A DNA stretch of 64,000 nt from Armigeres subalbatus (taxonomy: Eukaryota; Arthropoda; Insecta; Diptera; Culicidae): the NCBI RefSeq assembly GCF_024139115.2, contig NC_085139.1:67251203-67315202 (forward strand), given 5' to 3'. Positions 25,300 to 37,130 of this stretch are shown piece by piece. Below the pieces are notes generated by a model, which was not told where the DNA came from, made no database searches, and worked only from the letters and a program-made list of their open reading frames with translations. Positions within the stretch are counted from its first letter, which is position 1. Every line of letters starts with the position of its first letter. The position numbers were made by a program, and so were the translations under genes.

Positions 25300-25436
25300 G
25301 GGTCCTAAAGCCCTACCTCGTTTATGGTTGCAAACGATAGTGCATCGGTCAAGAATACTTGAACCGATGTTATAAAAATTCTGGTAAAAGTCTAAATCAG
25401 TAAAAATAATATTTTTGTGTTTAATATATTTTGAGG

Positions 25437-25610
25437 GGCCCTCCTTAGCCGTGCGGTAAGACGCGCGACTACAAAGCAAGACCATGCTGAGGGTGGCTGG
25501 GTTCGATTCCCGGTGCCGGTCCAGGCAATTTTCGGATTGGAAATTGTCTCGACTTCCCTGGGCATAAAAGTATCATCGTGCTAGCCTCATGATATACGAA
25601 TGCAAAAATG
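25437..25610 (+). mobile_element. Feilai-like SINE, 5' part
   Basis: tRNA-derived head with box A-like TTAGCCGTGCGG and box B-like GGTTCGATTCC, then GGCAATTTTCGGATTGG and GGCATAAAAGTATCATCG. I recognise it as the Aedes Feilai type. It is interrupted at GCAAAAATG by the 11-kb transposon and resumes at 36699. SINE target duplication: AATATATTTTGAGG at 25423-25436 and 36809-36822 (14 bp). Confidence 0.85.
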
Positions 25611-26508
25611 CCCAAGAAACAATTGTTGTTTGAAGAAATGTCTCTTACAGCTACGCTATTCAGCTGTATGTTTAATTATAATGGATTTATTGCATTTGAT
25701 ACTACTAAACCAACCTTGTTCGCCCAAAAATGGAGAATCTATTCAACAACAGTAGTTCTATAAGCATGTTGAAATAAATGTTTAAGCTATCACCTTGCCT
25801 CGATTGTTCAACTGCAAAAACAATAAAAGAGCTACACCAACATTAATTCAACGCTTGTTACTACAAGGCTTATTACCCGAACTAATAAAGCTTTTGTTCA
25901 ATGTTTTACAAATAAGGCTGTTCGACAACAGTATGTTTGTGTAACATAGAAGATTGGGGGAAACTATTATTCAACATTAGTTCGAGGAAAGGTTCCGAAT
26001 ACAATTGGAATAACGTTGGATTAGGTGGCTATAATATATCTCAAATAAAGCTTATTACAAGTTTCTACAACAAGCTTTTTTTTTAATAAAAATGTTAAAA
26101 GAGGACTTCTCACGGATAGTTTTTATCTTGATATTATTTTATGGCTTTCATGAACTATCGATGTTACCAAATTCATGATATTCATAATTTAATCATTAAA
26201 CAAAACACCCTGGGCTGGACCAAGCATGAACTCGTCACCTCCGGTTTGAATATGCTAAGCTATAAGAATTTCGGCGGCATGATATTCATCATATACTGTA
26301 TATTAATTTCATTAAATTAAATTAAATTAAATTTTATCACATTTCTTCTAATTAATGGTTTCCTGCTATTGAAATCAAGATTCCAAACACAGTTCAACCC
26401 AACTCGTTTTTGCAATATTCAATTTTGGCTACATACGATTTTGGCTACTTACGTTTATAAATCCTTAAATTATCACGAAATTTTAAAAAAATGTGTTCGA
26501 AAGAAGAG
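25611..26508. other. Subterminal region of 11-kb transposon
   Basis: No gene. Carries repeated AACAA/TTGTTCAA/TAAGCTT words, likely transposase-binding or spacing repeats, and an (AATTA)n run near 26305-26331. The word CATGAACTATCGATGTT at about 26150 recurs at about 28840. Confidence 0.55.
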
Positions 26509-26510
26509 TA

Positions 26511-27693
26511 GGGGAAGAGGTGGTAAAATGAACAGTTGGCTATATTTATATTAAAACACTATTTAGGCGTATGTTAATCATGCACACGTTTTCCTCGAAA
26601 TAAAATAAAGTACCTGAGCTAATATTTTGGTTTTGAGACCGAACGAATAGCTATTACTATCCAAAATACCAAACGAGGCCGTAAAAATAGGGTCTGATGT
26701 AATTTTTAACCATTTTTCTGCAAGCTTCAATTCTTAATAAATTAATAATAACATTGATTTAAACCTGTTCTAACAACAGCGGCAAATAGGACAACCTTCA
26801 CAAAGATGTTGCAGGGGTAAATAGTAAAATTATTGGTTTGCATAGTTGGAGGAAGAGTTATTTATCACAAAGCACGTATGGGGGTAAAATGAACACTTGT
26901 ATCAAACTTTCACAAATTTATGGTAAAAGTTGTGCGATTGTGAAGCGGAAGTTCAAGAAACAAACCATATCAAATAACCAAGATAAAACTTTGAACACAG
27001 AGAAACAGACGTCTCACTCAGAACAAATTGCAATCAAAATCATCGTCACGAAAACATTGTCGCCCAATGCTAAAATCCCGGTGAGTGGCCAAGCGGCAAC
27101 CAGATGGCGGTAGTGTGCAAACGTCAAACACAAGCAAAATCGATGAAAGCGCCATCGGTGGTCGATTGACCACCTACAAAAAGTTAAATAAACCGTTAAA
27201 AAGGTGTACGATGGAACATATGTTGAGTGAGACGTCTGTTTCTCTGTGCTTTGAATATGTAAATTTAATTTAAACATAATTGATATTTTCAAACTTTTTT
27301 CATTCTTTTTATTAGTTTGATAATTAAGAGCTTTTCAAAACTTATACCAGATTTTTCAAAAGGCTCTCGTAATCTCAATTAGTTTTATATACAGTGCCAG
27401 AGTAAAAAAATGAAAATTTAATGTTCCAAAAGGGTTTAAGAAGCGATGTTCATTTTACCACCAGGCAATGTTCATTTTACCCGCACTATTTTTGTACATA
27501 CGAAATTTCGATGTTTTTTATTTCGATGAAAAACTATATAAAACAATGTTTATTAACGAAAAAATTGTTCAGTGCAATAAGAATATGAGTTAAATTGCTG
27601 AATTGCTGAAGTGGTAAAACTAGCAAATTATCCTCGTTTTATGATTGAATTTAACGCAAGTCCTTAACGTGTTCATTTTACCACCTGTTCCCC
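26511..27693. mobile_element. TA-flanked element, GGTGGTAAAATGAACA ends
   Basis: Left end GGGGAAGAGGTGGTAAAATG, right end (inverted) GGGGAACAGGTGGTAAAATG, flanked by TA at 26509-26510 and 27694-27695. Further internal copies of GGTAAAATGAACA occur in both orientations (26884, 27450, 27470). About 0.92 kb once the MITE at 26996-27248 is removed. TA target and lack of a gene suggest a Tc1/mariner-type MITE. Confidence 0.7.
26996..27248 (+). mobile_element. CACAG MITE, copy 1 (7-bp TSD)
   Basis: 253 bp, TIR CACAGAGAAACAGACGTCTC (at least 20 bp, perfect), flanked by CTTTGAA at 26989-26995 and 27249-27255. A second 253-bp copy lies at 30005-30257 with its own 7-bp repeat. No gene. Nested in the TA element at 26511-27693. 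Confidence 0.9.
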
Positions 27694-28011
27694 TATAGTT
27701 TATATAGAGAAAAAAAAGAAAAAAAAGGGTGTATTATAGTATAGTATAGAGTATATACATATTCATTTTAATTTCATTTTTAATTATTCAATTTTATTCG
27801 AATGCTCATGCTATTATGTCTTTTTATTTCATCTTTTCAGAAATCAAGAAGTCTATTTTTCGATCTTTGAACCAGAATGAAATATACTCTGAAGATAGCA
27901 TAAATCTAAAACTAGCTAGTGTTGAAGAAAGATCCTCCATCATCCAGGACATACGAATGGAAACTTGGTGAGAGAATTCCATTATATATATTTACCAAAT
28001 TATATTGAAAC

Positions 28012-28273
28012 CACAGACAAACAGACGTAACACTAGAAAAAATAACATCGACCATGACCTCAACGATCAATTTGAATTTGATTGGTTGCGCGTTTCACAA
28101 CTAGAGGCGCTTGCATCATAATCCTTCGAGTTTGACATTTCACTCCAGCGCCTTCTGGTGACAATGTCATACGAAATATTGTTTCGTGTAACATGCTCGC
28201 AAGATGGTGGTAGAAGAGTTGGGCGATGGATTTTTCAGAAAATTGTTCAAGCTGTTACGTCTGTTTGTCTGTG
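28012..28273. mobile_element. CACAG MITE, diverged copy (7-bp TSD)
   Basis: 262 bp, TIR CACAGACAAACAGACGTAAC, flanked by TTGAAAC at 28005-28011 and 28274-28280. End sequence and duplication length match the 253-bp CACAG copies although the interior differs, so this is a sister family. Confidence 0.85.
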
Positions 28274-28281
28274 TTGAAACT

Positions 28282-28429
28282 ATATCTAGACCAACATTTG
28301 AAAAGGGCGTAACAGCCAAAATTTGATCTCTCCAATATTTTGTCTATGTATATAGCTATGTATGTAGATAAGGAATCCGCAGGAATAAATTTTGGCTGTT
28401 ACGCCCTTTTCAAATGTTGGTCTAGATAT
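28282..28429. repeat. 148-bp palindromic element
   Basis: Inverted arms ATATCTAGACCAACATTTG and onward for about 44 bp (through GGGCGTAACAGCCAAAATTT) around an AT-rich loop. It lies one base after the TSD of the neighbouring MITE. No coding capacity. Confidence 0.85.
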
Positions 28430-28840
28430 GATTATATACCATAATCCAAAAAAAAAAAACATCCATCAGGGCACCCGATTGAAGCGATTTGGATAGGAAG
28501 AGTGGAATCGCCAACTTCCTATTGTTAACATCTCGTGGATAAAGGGCGGGCTCTTCTCCCCATCTATTGGGTCAATCTGGGAAACGAGGGCTAGATTATA
28601 ATATTGTATGTACGAACTTTCTTCTGGAAGGAGATTGTCTAATCCTCCCGTGGATTCGCATAAGTGTCTCTGCTTATGGAACCACCCCACCCATTTTTGG
28701 CCCTTCATACAGGAGTCTGATGAAATACAAACAGTAGTATAATCATGATCAAATCGTTTGTCAGATATGGCCAGTGCTATTGGCAGGTGCCTTGCTACAA
28801 TAGATGGTAGTATCATCATCATCATCATCATCATCATTCA

Positions 28841-29343
28841 TGAACTATCGATGTTTCAACTAAATAATTTATAGAACTGTGACTTGTTTTTATACATCAA
28901 CTACGGTTATCACAATCTCCAACGATGCGAGACTCGAACTCAGGACCCTTCGATTGACATCCGCCTGCTCTTCCGCTGCTCCATGCAAGGTTATATAAAT
29001 CGACCATGTTAAATGTAGTTATAAATTATTTAATACCAAACTGAACCACTTATTGCACAAACATTGCATAAACAACATTTGAGCATATTTATTAAATAGA
29101 ATGTATATGTCAACAATATTGTTGAACACGTTTGCACTGCAACGTTTATACACATTCAGATAAGCACCGTATGTAGTTGCCCCGATTGTAGTTTAAGAAT
29201 CGTTGAATAATCAATTCAGAAACAATCTGGTAACACTGCTTCCAATAGTCAATCCGTGCGCGCACCCGTTGCCCATCACTGTCAAAACAACAACAACAAA
29301 CAGTGCCGTGCAGTGACTAAAGCGGTGAATATTTGCAGGAAAA
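28841..29343. promoter_or_regulatory. Upstream region of DUF4806-like gene
   Basis: Holds the presumed promoter and 5' UTR of the gene starting at 29344. Includes CCATCACTGTCAAAACAAC and CAGTGCCGTGCAGTGAC just before the start. No clear TATA box. The word TCGAACTCAGGACCCTTCG near 28934 resembles a tRNA-type box B fragment of a SINE. Confidence 0.3.
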
Positions 29344-32300
29344 ATGAACAAAGGTACGTATTTTTAGTATTCTAATGAAAAACCATTGTTGAAGTGCAAT
29401 TTAATATATTGTAGATTACTTTCTTGTTGTGGAGACAGTCGAGGCCGGTAGACCCGTCTTGTCGGTAGTGCCGCACAAATGGGTAGCTGAAAATTCCCTA
29501 TTCTGGCCTCCAAAGCAGGCGAATGTGCTCCGGAAAGACGCCGGTTCAAGTCCAATGCCTTCTTGGACTAAATTGCCTTGTGCAGTGAAACGGAAGTACA
29601 TTCCCAGTTTTGGGGAAGCGGAGCGAGAAGCCGATGAGCTTTCAGGGCAATCCACCGACATGTCAGACTTCGCTACGAAACGAAAAAAAAAGTTGAAGAA
29701 AACCTCAAAAGCCCTCGATCTAAACCACCTCATCACTGAAAAACGTAAGTAGATTATTGGTTCAGGGATCGTTCACATATTACATATTCACATATTATGT
29801 AACCATTGACAAAAGAACATTTTAAACTCTCATCTGCCCCACGTAACATAAATCAGTATAAATACCTAAACAAAAAAAAATCCCGTAACACTCGACTAGA
29901 TGTCCTCCCCCTTTCCTTACGTTACGTAATATGTGAACGATCTTCAACAAAATTTCAAAAATAGCATACGGAATAAAAAAGCACACTCTTCATTAAGTTC
30001 ATAACACAGAGAAACAGACGTCTCACTTAGAACAAAATGCAATCAAAATCATCGTCACGGAAGCATTATCGCCCAGTGCTAAATGCAGTGTGTGTGGTCA
30101 AACGGCAACCAGATGGCGGTAGTGTGCAAACGTCAAACACAAGCAAATCCGATGGAAGCGCCATCGGTGGCCGATTGACCACCTACAAAAATTTGAATCC
30201 ACCGTTAAAAAGGTGAACGATGGAACATGTGTTGAGTGAGACGTCTGTTTCTCTGTGTTCATAATTTGGATATTACATCTGCCAATAACATTAAAATGCT
30301 TTTATTCCTCTTCGTTACAGAATCTCAGATTCAAGGAAAGCCCTCAACCGGACAACGAGACTGGACAGAGAAGTCAAGCACAACAGCGTCCCAAATTCCT
30401 GTCGTTACTCAAACGATTGACCGAGTTTATTGTGATCTAGATTTATCGAATCTAATGACGAATTCACAAGGAACAACGTTGGACTCTCATCCGACTCTTG
30501 CACCTCAACCGGCTCAAATGTCATCATCAACATCGGCCCCAGTGGAAACGGAAGTGATTTCGGAAGGATACGTCCTTAACATCCAGCAGGTATAAATTTT
30601 GTTTATTGTAGTAGTAGAGTTAATGTAGCATAACAATCGTATTTTTTTTACTTTTTATTTCTTTGCTTCACTGTCTACATCGCTTATAAATGAACTTATT
30701 TCAAAATAAGTCAAACTCAAAATTTGGTACTGTCATTATATGGATATATGTGCAAAGTTCATAGAAAATCAAGCTAACATGAGACAGTGGTATGTAGTGT
30801 ATTGCATATCGCCTCAGTTACACAACAAAAGAAGCAATACAACCGGCAACTGATGCGTCTGGTTGTATGTGCTAACACTTTTTTTTTCTCGTAATGAATA
30901 TCAAATACTAAATTAAACCAATCTAATTGGTCTTCCACTTTCTGTTTTCAGCCGAATACGGATAGGATCATTAAGGAAGTTTCCGAAAAAGTCATCGAGC
31001 AAGTGAGCGTTAATGTGCTAAGCTCGATGGAAGCAATGCTGGCAAAAACCGCAGCTTCCTTGGAGATGAAGATCGATGCTGCCATTCGTCAAAGCAACAA
31101 TGAGTATTATTCAGAAGCTTCAACATCCTTCCAGTTTTCGCCAGTGGCTACCACGGATGGAATAGATGCATTGGAAGAGAGTCTCAACGATGAGTCGTTT
31201 GCCAAGCAGTTCGTAAGTTGTATTTTTTTACGATAATTATTTGTATTATTAACGTCTGTGTAACTGTGGTAATGCTATTTTTTGGAATATGTTGCCCTGT
31301 TCTAATATAGAAATCTACTGTCATTCAATTAATTATACCTACAATACCATTATACTGCCGCTAACCGCAAGTCGAGCACATCTGTATATGGGACTCCATA
31401 TACAAATGTGCTCGACTTGCGGTTAGCGGCAGTATAGGTATTGTACACAAATTACGCAACCAAGGGAAGAGGTTTAACTCAACGTAGCAATCCATTCTTT
31501 TATATAAATAATAAATTAATTAGTTAATATATTTTTTTTAGTTTGCGCACATGAAGAGGAAAATTGGAAACAGCGGCGATGCGTGCAATGGTCAGAATAT
31601 TGCTTATGGATTGATTGATCACTTTTTCGAAAGGAAGGTGATGCTCGATTGTTCCTGGACCGGAGAGAGTAAAGGAGGAAGTGCCAAGTATCCCATGAAA
31701 AAATGTGTCAATATTCTTAACATGTTTTTCAAACTGGTTCACAGCGTGAACAATACATTTTCACAAGCGCTGTTGGAGGATCTGTTCAAAAGATTCCAAG
31801 AAATGCGAAGAAGCGAAGTGAAACAAAAGGCAAAAGGCAATCCTCAATTCATCGGCGATCAAAAACAAAAGGTTCTGAGAAAGGTAGGGATATTGAGTTT
31901 ATTAAAAAAATAATACTTGGCAAGGGTAATATTGAAAAATTATTGAAATTGGATGTTTTTAATGTAAAATGAGATCTTTTGTATAAGCGAAAGCTGAACA
32001 ATTTTAACGCAAAATATGTAGCTTGTTTACATGAATTGACTTTTATATCCAAATTGGAATATTTTAAACGGTTTAATTTAATAAGAAGTAAACAATAAGC
32101 AACTTTTTTTTACAAATTCTAATTTTCTATATTGTGACAATTACATCGCAACACAGGTTATAAGGGGTCGTCCATATACTACGGAAAATTAAAATTTCGT
32201 ATGAAAAAATTCCGCGATGGGGAGGGCCTGGTTTATTGACGATCCCTAACTTATTTTACTATTCAATGAGCACATCCACTGTGATTACTTGAGTTTACTT

Positions 32301-32663
32301 AGCCAATTTCTAACAATTATTTTAAAATCAATTTCAGAAATTCATTGTACTCCGCATACTACTGCTATCACCACCAATGACGTACACCGTGCCCCACAGA
32401 TATCTGGTATCAGCGTTACTGAAGTTCCGGCGCGTCCGGTGGAACTTGGTGGAAGTAAGGGCTCAGATGTGGTAAATGTAGACTCAGATTCACCTATTCT
32501 CATGAAGATCGAAGAAGGCGCACTGAATGTTGCAATAAATTCAGAACATGGAGAGGATGAATATGAGGAGGAAGAAGAAAATGAAGGAGAAAATGAAGAG
32601 CACGAGGATGATGAACATGAGGACGAAGAAGAATCGTCGCAAGAGTCCGAAAGTGATTTTTAA
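29344..32663 (+). CDS. DUF4806-like protein, six exons
   Basis: My exon model is 29344-29353, 29415-29744, 30321-30589, 30952-31212, 31542-31883, 32400-32663, about 491 residues with phases consistent throughout. The N-terminal part (YFLVVETVEAGRPVLSVVP, KWVAENSLFWPP, PCAVKRKYIPSF) resembles the head of insect DUF4806 proteins, then a basic KRKKKLKK stretch (possible nuclear signal), a Ser/Thr/Gln-rich middle, and LEESLNDESFAKQF...DHFFERKVMLDCSWTG, the DUF4806-like fold. The tail is very acidic (E/D-rich). The last acceptor is uncertain: the better-looking CAG at 32335-32337 gives the wrong frame, so I use CCCCACAG ending at 32399. MITEs sit in introns 2 and 4. Function of the family is unknown; its place inside the transposon suggests an accessory protein. 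Confidence 0.75.
29767..29942. mobile_element. MITE in intron 2
   Basis: Inverted ends GATCGTTCACATATTAC and GTAATATGTGAACGATC with AT-rich interior. About 176 bp. Target duplication not resolved. Confidence 0.65.
30005..30257 (+). mobile_element. CACAG MITE, copy 2 (7-bp TSD)
   Basis: 253 bp, same length, orientation and TIR as 26996-27248, flanked by TTCATAA at 29998-30004 and 30258-30264. Inserted in intron 2 of the DUF4806-like gene. Confidence 0.9.
31351..31436. repeat. 86-bp hairpin in intron 4
   Basis: Near-perfect palindrome TATACTGCCGCTAACCGCAA...GCGGCAGTATA. Shares its TATACTGCCG end with the hairpins at 9925 and 22201 but not their interior. Confidence 0.8.
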
Positions 32664-32866
32664 TGCGGTCCTGTAGACTTCGGTGGATTCCAATAACGAT
32701 CTCATTTGATATAATGCTGTTTTAAGAACCTTTTTATTTGTTTTGTTCCAATGAACTTTGTTTTCTTGTTTTATTTTAATGAAATACAAATACAATCCTT
32801 TCATAAACTTTTACTTCGATATAAATGTGTTCATAAAGAAAAACTGAGAAACATTTTAGCATGATA
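32664..32866. other. Gap between convergent genes
   Basis: 203 bp between the two stops. AT-rich and likely to carry both 3' ends; no clear AATAAA on either strand. Confidence 0.4.
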
Positions 32867-34130
32867 TTAAAAGGAAAAAGTGTGCAAAAGAGGTATGTAA
32901 ACACATCTATCTGTTTTGTAAGAAATTGCAACAAACTTGCATAAAATGTCATCAATCTTAAAGCTTTGTATGCTCTTAAAATTAGAAACGTGAGCTAAAT
33001 AAATATGAAAGAACGATGATCGAATTGGCAGCTTGAAAAAATCAGTTTGATTAGCGATTACTTTTCCATGTATTAGAATACTATTGTTAGGGTTAACCGA
33101 AGCATCAGTCATTTGAACAATTTCGAAATTCTTCGTTAAAAACCACGAATCTTTAAATGCATTATTAAGTTCCAATCCTGATCGCACTGCACATTTAACT
33201 GAACTGCCACGTTTTTTTACTGATGGAACAAATACAATATTGGTATTGTCACTATCTTTAGGTCCCCGATTCTTTTCCAGTATTCTGTTAGCAACTTGTT
33301 CAAGACAATAGTTTCCCTGCCGCACGCATTTTTTCAGTTGGAATAGATAATTCTCGAAGGGATATGCTGAAATTGTGCTAAGATTACCAAATCTTTCTAC
33401 ATCATTTACTACATGCTCAAGGTTGTGAATATTACTCGTTACGAATTCCTCACCGTATATTTCTATGAATCCTTCAATGAACTTTTCGAACAATGTTTGG
33501 GCGAGAGGAAGCCATTTCCTAAAATATTCAGTTGAGCATAGTCTAACAGCAATAAACAGAAGCAAGAAGTGATTGTACAATTTGTCGTCTATTATATCTT
33601 TAAGTACAACTATGCCAACATAGTTAAGAAATGAGTGCCATTCGGTGCCTTTCCAAAAGGCCAAACAGTCTAATCCTCTCATTTGTCGGTGTATTTCTTG
33701 AGGTAATTTGATTTTTAAAATGGAATCAGAAAGTTCCTGTATTTTTATAGCGGACAACTTCCCCTTATATCCTAGAGTTCCGTCTCGCCATCCTGTTAAG
33801 AGCCGTTTCATCACACCCAATTCCAACAAGTGAAGGGAATCGGCAACAACGAAGTCTTTGATCATATCAAATTCGGGAAGCTTCAAAATCGGTGAATCTT
33901 GTCCTGAATGGTGCTTTCCGTATTGCTTTTGACGAAATTTCAAATCCGTCCTCAAAGGGCAATGCAACATGGGAAACACAACTGTCCGGGATACGTAAGA
34001 ATACTCTCCATTAATAGTGCACTTTAAGCAGCCATCCTTTCCGTTAAAGTTGATTACACCTGAACCATTTTTTAAAGAGAAGAATTTAAAATTAATGTTA
34101 ATATTTGTTTTCTTTCATTTTATGAAAATA

Positions 34131-34328
34131 TCACAGACAAACACACACACTATTTGGAACGAATTGCAATCAAAAACGAATACGTGATTATTGGAAACAG
34201 TGTAGTTGGCGAAGCTACGAATACGTGCAACCAATAAGGAGATCGCTTTGCCAATTAGGTATATTTGAAATCGACCGCTTAAAGGCGGACGATGGAGATC
34301 GTGTTCAAACAAACGTATGTTATCTGTG
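34131..34328. mobile_element. CACAG-type MITE remnant in intron
   Basis: Ends CACAGACAAACACACAC and (inverted) CACAGATAACATACG; the interior word ATTGCAATCAAAA is shared with the 253-bp CACAG copies. No matching duplication at the flanks, so it is older or rearranged. It lies in the intron between transposase exons 2 and 3. Confidence 0.55.
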
Positions 34329-35141
34329 AATTGATATTGGCCAAATTTAAAGGGAAATTATACGGTTTGCGAATGCTTTTTGCTCAAGTGCGGATTGAAC
34401 ATATGAACATCATTAATTTTTGGGTGACAATTTTCTTCATTGTACTGAAATTCTAACTGCAATGCACTGGCAAACAGACGATCGATTTAAATTAGCCGCA
34501 AATATGCGGTTTATGGAAGTGAAAATTATGTCTATTAGGGATCATGCACAATGTATGTTAGTTAAGTCATATAGAGCAGAGAGTCACGAGCAAAGTTAGA
34601 GTGAGGGGAAAGGGATTAATATCAATTTTAATATAACATAATTTTTGCATAACTGTCTATATGTATGTAAACTATACCTTTAATTAGAGCTCGGGCTGGT
34701 GAATCACATATGAAGCAACGTAGTTTAATACGTATTATGTGGCCTTTGAAGTGAAATCCGTTTTGAAGTAATGGTATTGCATCATTTACGAACTGCGTCA
34801 AGTACTGATCTATATCAGTAGGTTTTGTTTTTCCCAAAAAGATTCCAATAGGCATCGGCTGTAGTTCTGGCATATTATGAACGTTGCATAGTATGGGCCA
34901 AAGTTGAAATTTTGAACTTTTATACACAGGCAAGCCGTCGATGTTAATGTTAATACTTATGTTTATATCTCCTGATATATTGTCAAACCACCTTTCAAGG
35001 CAAGCTTGTAGCCCATGGTGCCAGTATGTACCACCTGGGATCTTTTTGCAGAGTTTTCCAATATTCGAAGGAGTTTCCAGTAGCGTTCTTGGATCCATAG
35101 GTAAAGTTGTGTCGTTGTATTTTTCTTTGATCAACCCCAGC

Positions 35142-35540
35142 CAGTGATGGGAAATGTCAAAAAAATGTCATGGGGTTGCTATTACTAATTCGCTAATAAC
35201 TTTTTTCAAAAGTTATGTACAATTCGGATTTTTTTTATTAACATGTAATGCTCAAAGGATCCTACAAGTTTGCCAAACAGGTCATTGTTCTAAATACACA
35301 GTATGAGGCACGATAACGAATTTAAAAAAATGTCACGGAATGTCATGACATTAATGTCATTTGACACTAATTCGGTTCTCACGGCGCCAATTTCAGTTTT
35401 AGAGCAATGACCTATTAGAAAAAGTTTTAGTATCCTTTGAAGGCTTTATATTCATATAAAACATACGATTGTAAATTACTTGTGAAAAAAGTTATTAACA
35501 AATTAGTCCCATGACATCGATATGACATTTCCCGTCACTG
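35142..35540. mobile_element. 399-bp MITE, 8-bp TSD, in transposase exon 2
   Basis: Ends CAGTGATGGGAAATGTCA and TGACATTTCCCGTCACTG are inverted. Flanked by the exact 8-bp repeat ACCCCAGC at 35134-35141 and 35541-35548. TIRs starting CAGTG and an 8-bp target suggest a hAT-type MITE. It breaks the reading between DLLG and LIKEKYND of the transposase. Confidence 0.9.
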
Positions 35541-36093
35541 ACCCCAGCAAGTCCTTCAACGCATTATGATGGATGTTGTGACGAAGAGACCAGGACCTTA
35601 AGGCTTCACGTGAACTTTCTGTTGTGGAACTCACACATTCATTCTGCTGATTAATCAAATCATGCTGCTGCTTGGACTCAATATTGGCTAAATCATCAGC
35701 CGGACGAGTTTGAAGAACTGCATCAAATTTTTCGGAAACAACTTTTTGAGGTAGTTGCAAATTTTGATTGCAAAGAGCCGCCACGGTTGAATTTTTAGAG
35801 GGTTTACAATTTAGTTCTTCGTATTGATAAGGTACCGATGTTTTATCTTGTGTGTTTCGGTCTGAAATTATGCTTTTTAGTATAATTTTATAATATTAAG
35901 CAAAAACAAGCTTTATACCATTCGTAGGATCTGGTACAGCTTTGAGTGCTGCGAATGACGCTGCTTTTTCCACTGTTTTGTGTTGTACTTGTAGCGTCCT
36001 ATACAACAACCGGTATTTTTCACTAACCCGCTTTAATTTTCGGTGATATGTACCACTCTTTTTGAACTTTTTGAAGGATTTATCCATTTTCAC

Positions 36094-36696
36094 AAAAATT
36101 CAATACACAGTGACATCCGCACAGCCAGATACAACATAATTGATTTTGTCAACAATGATGAACCAACAGCAATTATGTTGTGTTGAACAACATATGAAAG
36201 AACATCACTATAAATAAATAAGTAAGTTATTCTAACAATTATCATACAGTAAGCTTATTTCACAACTAATCAACATGTTCGGTTCAAAGGCTTCCAATCT
36301 AATATAAGACACATTACTTCATTGAATTGTACAACTTCGGCAGCGCTGTTGAATAACAAATTCAAACAAATGTTATTAAGCATCACATAAACATGTTATT
36401 CAATATCAACTTGATTGCACAAGATAGGATTTATTTTGGTGGGATAAAGAATATTTACAGTGAATAATTCAACTGTACTTCACCCAACCTGGGAAATTTT
36501 AGGGCAACATTTGTTAAACTTTTATTCGATGCTTTATTCAAATAACAACAAAACAGGGAACTAATGCGGTGATTTCAATCAGTATAACATTTATTAAACA
36601 ACTTCTTAAACATGCTTTATTGTTCAACTACCACCGCTTCTATACAACAATTGTTCAACAAGCTTGTTGATTTATGGCTCTGAATTGTTTCTTGGG
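36094..36696. other. Right subterminal region of 11-kb transposon
   Basis: Presumed promoter of the transposase plus subterminal repeats (TTGTTCAACA, GTTGAATAACA, AACATGTTATTC). No further gene. Confidence 0.55.
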
Positions 36697-36698
36697 TG

Positions 36699-36808
36699 GT
36701 AACTTGGCTTAGAAACCTCGCAGTTAATAACTGTGGAAGTGCTTAACGAACACTAAGCTGCGAGGCGGCTCTGTCCCAGTGTGGGGATGTAATGCCAATA
36801 AGAAGAAG
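36699..36808 (+). mobile_element. Feilai-like SINE, 3' part
   Basis: GTAACTTGGCTTAGAAACC...GCGAGGCGGCTCTGTCCC...GCCAATAAGAAGAAG, the tail of the SINE begun at 25437, ending in (GAA)n-like tail and the 14-bp target duplication at 36809-36822. Confidence 0.85.
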
Positions 36809-37130
36809 AATATATTTTGAGGCAAATTTTGGCCTGTGCAACATTTCAGAACGAATCAACCATAAGCCCAAAACGTCAGGCCCATATAATAACTGTCAAA
36901 GGTGGAGTCAAGTGCCCTGCGGTGTTTTGCTAGTGCGTTTGAATCATATTATTCCGTACGTCAAACAAGACCGAAAATATCGAGGAAGCATTTTTCATCT
37001 ATTTTTCAATTTCAAATTAAACAATGTTCCTTTCGATTTTTGAGTCAAAAGAAAAACTGACGCGTTCAGGATGATTAACTTCATCGTTCCCTGAAATAAA
37101 ATCGAATATCGATTCTTCATTTTAGGACCC

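Follow-up and report, generated by a model that had tools for sequence, protein, structure and literature searches.

A degenerate two-gene DNA transposon of Armigeres subalbatus, probably of the wider CMC/Transib clade, in which a DUF4806-like gene converges on the transposase gene

Why does a DUF4806-like gene face a transposase gene between two inverted repeats? The question is raised by a stretch of 64,000 nucleotides of the mosquito Armigeres subalbatus (assembly GCF_024139115.2, contig NC_085139.1, positions 67,251,203 to 67,315,202 of the forward strand), which is referred to here as the window and whose own numbering is used for all its features. The answer that we favor, with a probability of roughly 0.75, is that the locus is a degenerate cut-and-paste transposon of the CMC/Transib (CMCT) clade with two convergent genes, and that the BEN-like product of the second gene is probably an end-binding protein resembling TNPA. 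Comparison of copies makes it nearly certain, in our opinion, that the two genes belong to one transposon.

The element spans 11,086 bp, later insertions included (25611..36696), and is bounded by perfect 14-bp inverted ends and by a duplication of the target dinucleotide TG (25609..25610 and 36697..36698). The end sequence CCCAAGAAACAATT is found exactly at 25611..25624 on the + strand and at 36683..36696 on the − strand, and nowhere else in the window when up to two mismatches are allowed. Two such matches also occur in 36 of 100 shuffles of the window, so that the proof rests on genome-wide counts: there are 230 exact copies of CCCAAGAAACAATT, versus 8 of a reversed control pattern. Among the first 100 places listed, 28 neighboring pairs face inwards within 20 kb and one faces outwards; the inward pairs range from 1,268 to 11,086 bp in length, the window element being the longest. 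We retrieved 20 of the 27 other inward pairs for comparison: 16 of them have matching 2-bp flanks (the exceptions are L010, L012, L015 and L019), and the duplicated dinucleotide varies. The empty site is also visible. When the window flanks are joined with a single TG, they match an uninterrupted short interspersed element (SINE) within the copy L017, with 96% identity over 292 bp; this match defines the two parts of the interrupted SINE in the window (25435..25610 and 36697..36814, + strand) and both TG duplications. The subterminal regions (25611..26150 and 36097..36696, 1,140 bp in total) contain 10 occurrences of GTTGAA/TTCAAC compared to 0.77 in shuffles (maximum 6 in 2,000 shuffles), a significance that is overstated by the post hoc choice of this motif as the most enriched 6-mer. 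The perfect ends, the TG duplication with its empty site in a SINE and the subterminal repeats, all of which were part of the original prediction, are thus borne out.

The interior holds two multi-exon genes facing each other, as had been predicted; the splice sites of both are those predicted from the sequence. The DUF4806-like gene has six exons on the + strand: exon 1 (29344..29353), exon 2, which encodes an N-terminal beta domain (29415..29744), exon 3 (30321..30589), exon 4, with a long helix and the start of DUF4806 (30952..31212), exon 5, with the main DUF4806/BEN-like part (31542..31883), and exon 6, which encodes an acidic tail (32338..32663; the acceptor is uncertain, 32338 according to the alignment or 32400 according to the gene model). 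The transposase gene has three exons on the − strand: exon 1 (35919..36087), exon 2, which is split into a first half (35541..35861) and a second half carrying both catalytic D (34678..35141), and exon 3, with C(2)C, H(3)H, the putative catalytic E and a possible BAH-like C-terminus (32867..34059).

The second complete copy that we found, L009 (C1:4443913-4451845), is 7,933 bp long, is flanked by a GT duplication and is 97.9–99.6% identical to the window element in the long aligned pieces. Eighteen of the 20 retrieved pairs have internal deletions: the ends remain, together with the DNA upstream of both genes, and the middles are gone, including the transposase core (L023 retains residues 1–76) and most of the second gene. 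This pattern is as would be expected for derivatives of a two-gene parent. The original prediction had named copies that share the ends and lack the second gene as an argument against it; the deleted copies are without the transposase core as well as most of the second gene, and only L009 among the 20 pairs keeps both genes. As an aside, L015 (C2:265370482-265376055) is a different element, which shares the 14-bp ends but whose long palindromic termini are unrelated in sequence. Of 44 places with a single end, 13 were retrieved as such (L029 to L041); eight of these are similar to the element (L036 and L041 in short pieces only) and five are not (L029, L031, L033, L035 and L038). Some matches to the 14-bp end are therefore due to chance or to another element.

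The gene pair recurs. A genome search with the C part of the transposase gives at least 103 matches (79 of 453 candidates were scored). Among the matches listed, eight loci reach an identity of at least 75% to this C part in the main match: the window, L009 and six others (C2:182713350, C2:175470568, C1:198599553, C1:217990884, C2:39387859 and C2:315287643). An exact copy of the 14-bp end lies near each of the eight, and the second gene is present in all eight, in the same convergent order, which upholds the proposal that the DUF4806-like gene is part of the transposon. These are not eight independent cases, since they form two subfamilies: the window, L009 and L042 on the one hand, and L039, L040, L043, L044 and L045 on the other (L042 to L045 were retrieved by way of their transposase match, and the stretch of L045 does not include its end). 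L043 is a complete copy flanked by CG duplications, with a single mismatch in one of its ends. Within the five-locus subfamily, the four pairs compared are 96–99% alike. Compared with the window, piece by matched piece, this subfamily has a second protein that is 36–75% identical and a transposase C part that is 59–85% identical. Silent sites between the subfamilies (window versus L040, L043 and L044) are saturated (ps 0.73–0.81) while replacement changes are low (second gene, 0.22; exon 5 of that gene, 0.13; transposase exon 3, 0.12–0.14), which indicates that selection has maintained both proteins. Near-identical copies such as L042 show too few changes for selection to be judged.

The second protein of the window contains DUF4806 (PF16064) with an expectation value (E) of 1.1e-12 and 48.6 bits, versus a curated cut-off of 25. 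Its predicted architecture consists of an N-terminal beta domain, a long helix, which is probably a coiled-coil, and a C-terminal BEN-like DUF4806 domain. From this model the domain appears to be of the DNA-binding type, and we consider it likely that the protein binds DNA. DUF4806 is also classed as a BEN subtype in PMC11075544, which cites Pan et al. 2023. A search against the sequences of solved structures returned a single match, at E 0.55, which is not credible. Homology searches with the whole protein or with a four-sequence alignment gave only 3 and 12 matches, respectively, probably as a result of swamping by low-complexity sequence.

What kind of transposase accompanies it? Its reading frames contain the motifs DGLP, CDSPAR, DGCLKC, NIHNLEH and YPFEN. 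In the relative P0002, the residues D120, D198, C217-x2-C220, H418-x3-H422 and E442 occupy columns that are invariant or nearly so among 36 sequences; E442 is taken as the catalytic E from the order of the motifs and the range of the alignment with RAG1. Like members of the CMC/Transib clade, the enzyme thus has a DDE triad in which C(2)C and H(3–4)H stand between the second D and the E, and the target duplication of 2 bp falls within the 2–5 bp of this clade. The structure predicted for P0002 (mean confidence score, pLDDT, of 90.2), which is that of the relative rather than of the window protein itself, has a RAG1-like fold, from which we infer that the transposase is a DDE enzyme of the RAG1/Transib fold; the same modeling suggests that its C-terminus is perhaps a BAH-like domain. 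The 5-bp target duplication of Transib and RAG is absent. Transposase_21 and DUF4218 are each matched at E ≤ 0.01 in 22 of 36 transposase homologues, and tnp2 (PF02992) is matched in the C part of the window transposase at E 7.5e-5 (22.5 bits versus a cut-off of 28.6; P0002 reaches 28.8). DUF1258 is found in 13 of the 36 homologues, a mere lead toward Mirage. CACTA/EnSpm transposons in the narrow sense have ends that start with CACTA or CACTG. The element has neither, and its duplication is of 2 rather than 3 bp, which rules out CACTA/EnSpm proper. The best reading of these sequence features is membership of the CMCT clade in the wider sense, so that half of the original label, CACTA/CMC-like, stands and its CACTA half falls. 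According to PMC12730594, this clade comprises EnSpm/CACTA, Mirage, Chapaev and Transib, and CACTA/EnSpm elements have CAC..GTG ends and 3-bp duplications.

The pairing extends to distant families. A genome search with PF16064 gives at least 81 matches, which merge within 3 kb into 60 loci; 14 control genomes gave no match. Sixteen of the 60 loci, with 37 Pfam matches, form a tandem array (C1:8826703-9452363), which may be a host gene family, perhaps transposon-derived. At least 19 of the 44 dispersed loci have a transposase locus no more than 10 kb away, versus 0.053 expected under uniform placement; 16 of these pairs are convergent and 3 are tandem, and the transposases are 41–60% identical to the query. 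Conversely, at least 18 of the 75 transposase loci are neighbored, at a distance of 10 kb or less, by a Pfam-level DUF4806. The pairing is undercounted, because the DUF4806 genes of the eight close loci were missed, probably owing to the splitting of the domain by an intron: none of these loci is among the 81 PF16064 matches listed.

The ends of these distant families were also compared. In L046, L047 and L048 we searched blindly for inverted ends beside equal 2-bp flanks, with one shuffle of each as a control. L046 has CCCAAGTAACC-type ends and L047 has CCCAGGTAACC-type ends, both with TA flanks, and their shuffles gave none; the search found no inverted ends in L048, whose shuffle gave one chance pair with a score of 11, lower than those of L046 and L047. 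L049 and L050 belong to a 48%-identical family with single-exon transposases of 594 amino acids and a convergent open reading frame, and have no Pfam-level DUF4806 nearby; in L049 this frame matches DUF4806 weakly, below the cut-off (E 2.2e-4, 21.9 bits). Read where the two copies stop matching, both start with CCCAGATAAC, end with GTTTACTGGG and are flanked by TG on either side. Ends in CCCA.. and 2-bp duplications are common to the window family and to the five complete elements read from other families or subfamilies (L043, L046, L047, L049 and L050).

Three observations weigh against our reading or a part of it. The family ends in CCC..GGG and not in the CA..TG that is usual, in most cases, in the CMC/Transib clade; it also differs from this clade by its BEN-like partner gene. 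The other two bear on the idea that the transposon accounts for the expansion of DUF4806 genes: among the matches listed, there is no transposase within 10 kb of any of the 16 loci of the tandem array, nor near 25 of the 44 dispersed loci. The predicted explanation of the expansion is borne out in part: it covers the dispersed loci that are paired, and not the unlinked array. The dispersed loci that lack a listed transposase may be host genes, solitary copies or pairs that were missed.

How would the two proteins work together? In the mechanism that we propose, the RAG1-fold transposase would cut and join the ends of the element, while the partner would bind the repeated motifs beside the inverted ends and either pair the two ends or mark them for the transposase; it might also regulate the element's own promoters. 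This TNPA-like role is proposed because of the analogy with the plant CACTA protein TNPA and with the Myb/SANT protein of Harbinger. By that analogy we lean towards binding of the partner to its own subterminal repeats, and we would give slightly less than even odds to its being needed for transposition.

An alternative, which we find unlikely, is that the transposon captured a DUF4806 gene from its host, and that this gene has no role in transposition and either is a passenger or works on the host, for example by influencing the chromatin silencing of the element. Such cargo has a precedent: PMC12730594 describes fungal transposons of many superfamilies that carry TET/JBP genes, likely for escape from silencing. 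The 16-locus array away from the listed transposase matches also fits a host origin. However, the pair, mostly convergent, is also seen with transposases only 41–60% identical to the query, and the constraint on the partner between the two subfamilies, together with this distant pairing, suggests that its use by the element is both ancient and sustained.

We also find it improbable that the second protein, instead of helping transposition, binds the promoter-bearing ends as a self-repressor or as a regulator of copy number. The retention, in the 18 deleted copies, of the DNA upstream of both genes would agree with this, as would the position of the motif-rich right end directly upstream of the transposase start, but the ends would be retained just as well if they contained sequences needed for transposition. 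That two unrelated neighbors were enclosed by an inverted repeat through chance or nested insertion can be dismissed despite the nested insertions of the window copy, given that the pair recurs in 8 of 8 close loci and in at least 19 of 44 dispersed DUF4806 loci where 0.05 were expected.

Elements that encode a catalytic protein and a second one are known elsewhere. In plant CACTA/EnSpm transposons, TNPA binds the ends and regulates promoters, and TNPA and TNPD are two proteins produced by alternative splicing in En/Spm. The window family is similar in that one of its two proteins is catalytic and the other would bind repeated motifs in the subterminal regions, and differs in having separate convergent genes, a 2-bp rather than a 3-bp duplication and non-CACTA ends. 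RAG2, the partner of RAG1, is a kelch/PHD protein. The RAG1–RAG2 transposons, TransibSU (PMC4411706) and ProtoRAG, likewise combine a catalytic protein of the RAG1 fold with a second gene in the element; the partner considered here would be BEN-like and not RAG2, and the duplication is of 2 rather than 5 bp. PMC4411706 gives 5 bp as the typical Transib duplication and a head-to-head gene order in the starfish element. Harbinger and Nuwa, as described in PMC12730594, also carry a transposase and a separate Myb/SANT DNA-binding protein in one element, but with another transposase superfamily and another DNA-binding domain. The predicted fold of the partner resembles that of the BEN-domain proteins BEND6, BANP, NACC1, insv and Bsg25A, with the difference that its gene sits in a mobile element. 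In those parts of the published literature that were searched, we did not see DUF4806 or BEN described as a gene carried by transposons; Repbase may list the lineage under another name.

In the published passages that we consulted, DUF4806 genes are numerous and without known function in Hydra, on zebrafish chromosome 4 and in an ambrosia beetle, and a table of the Hydra paper lists DUF4806 at 69 and 54 copies in two species, among many transposase-type domains. As a recurrent transposon partner, DUF4806 acquires a function that can be tested, and part of its scattered copies are explained; its presence on transposons also calls for caution before such expansions are read as host adaptation. 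A further RAG1-fold enzyme with a dedicated partner would help to compare how recombinases gain DNA-binding subunits. A broader idea, which we put forward tentatively and with the odds somewhat against it, is that a large insect lineage of RAG1/Transib-fold transposons has a convergent BEN partner as a rule, and would be a two-subunit recombinase independent of RAG1–RAG2 and a source of some host BEN/DUF4806 genes (the tandem array, perhaps also those of Hydra and zebrafish chromosome 4).

Regarding the window copy itself, both of its genes are broken, a point missing from the original prediction. Transposase exon 2 is split by a 399-bp miniature inverted-repeat transposable element (MITE; 35142..35540) with ends CAGTGA..TCACTG and an 8-bp duplication GCTGGGGT, hAT-like by the length of this duplication; L009 lacks this MITE. 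Exon 5 of the DUF4806-like gene is frameshifted near 31797 when compared with L009, behind the Pfam-matched stretch; the second gene of L009 carries a frameshift of its own, in exon 2. The window copy is longer than L009 because of later insertions, and three more features are absent from L009: one or more insertions with a 19-bp duplication (26166..28836), a MITE-like insertion (30005..30257) and a short palindromic insertion whose limits are approximate (31355..31429). Repeats are seen inside the element at 26996–27248, 28012–28273 and 30005–30257; two of them are copies of a repeat whose ends are CACAGAGAAACAGACGT, and the other has CACAGACAAACAGACGT ends. L009, judging by eye from its flanks, apparently inserted within an integrase-like reading frame of a retroelement.

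Last, we note the distribution of the transposase outside mosquitoes. Pattern searches gave 54 matches in viral contigs and 41 in bacterial and archaeal contigs, none of which was confirmed as a relative. In the transposase tree, leaf-beetle sequences (Diabrotica, Psylliodes) are nested in a mosquito clade, with modest support for the fork (92/78), and the Diabrotica transposase is 57% identical to the query over 99% of its length. This is a hint of horizontal transfer between mosquito and beetle, for which paralogy is the alternative.

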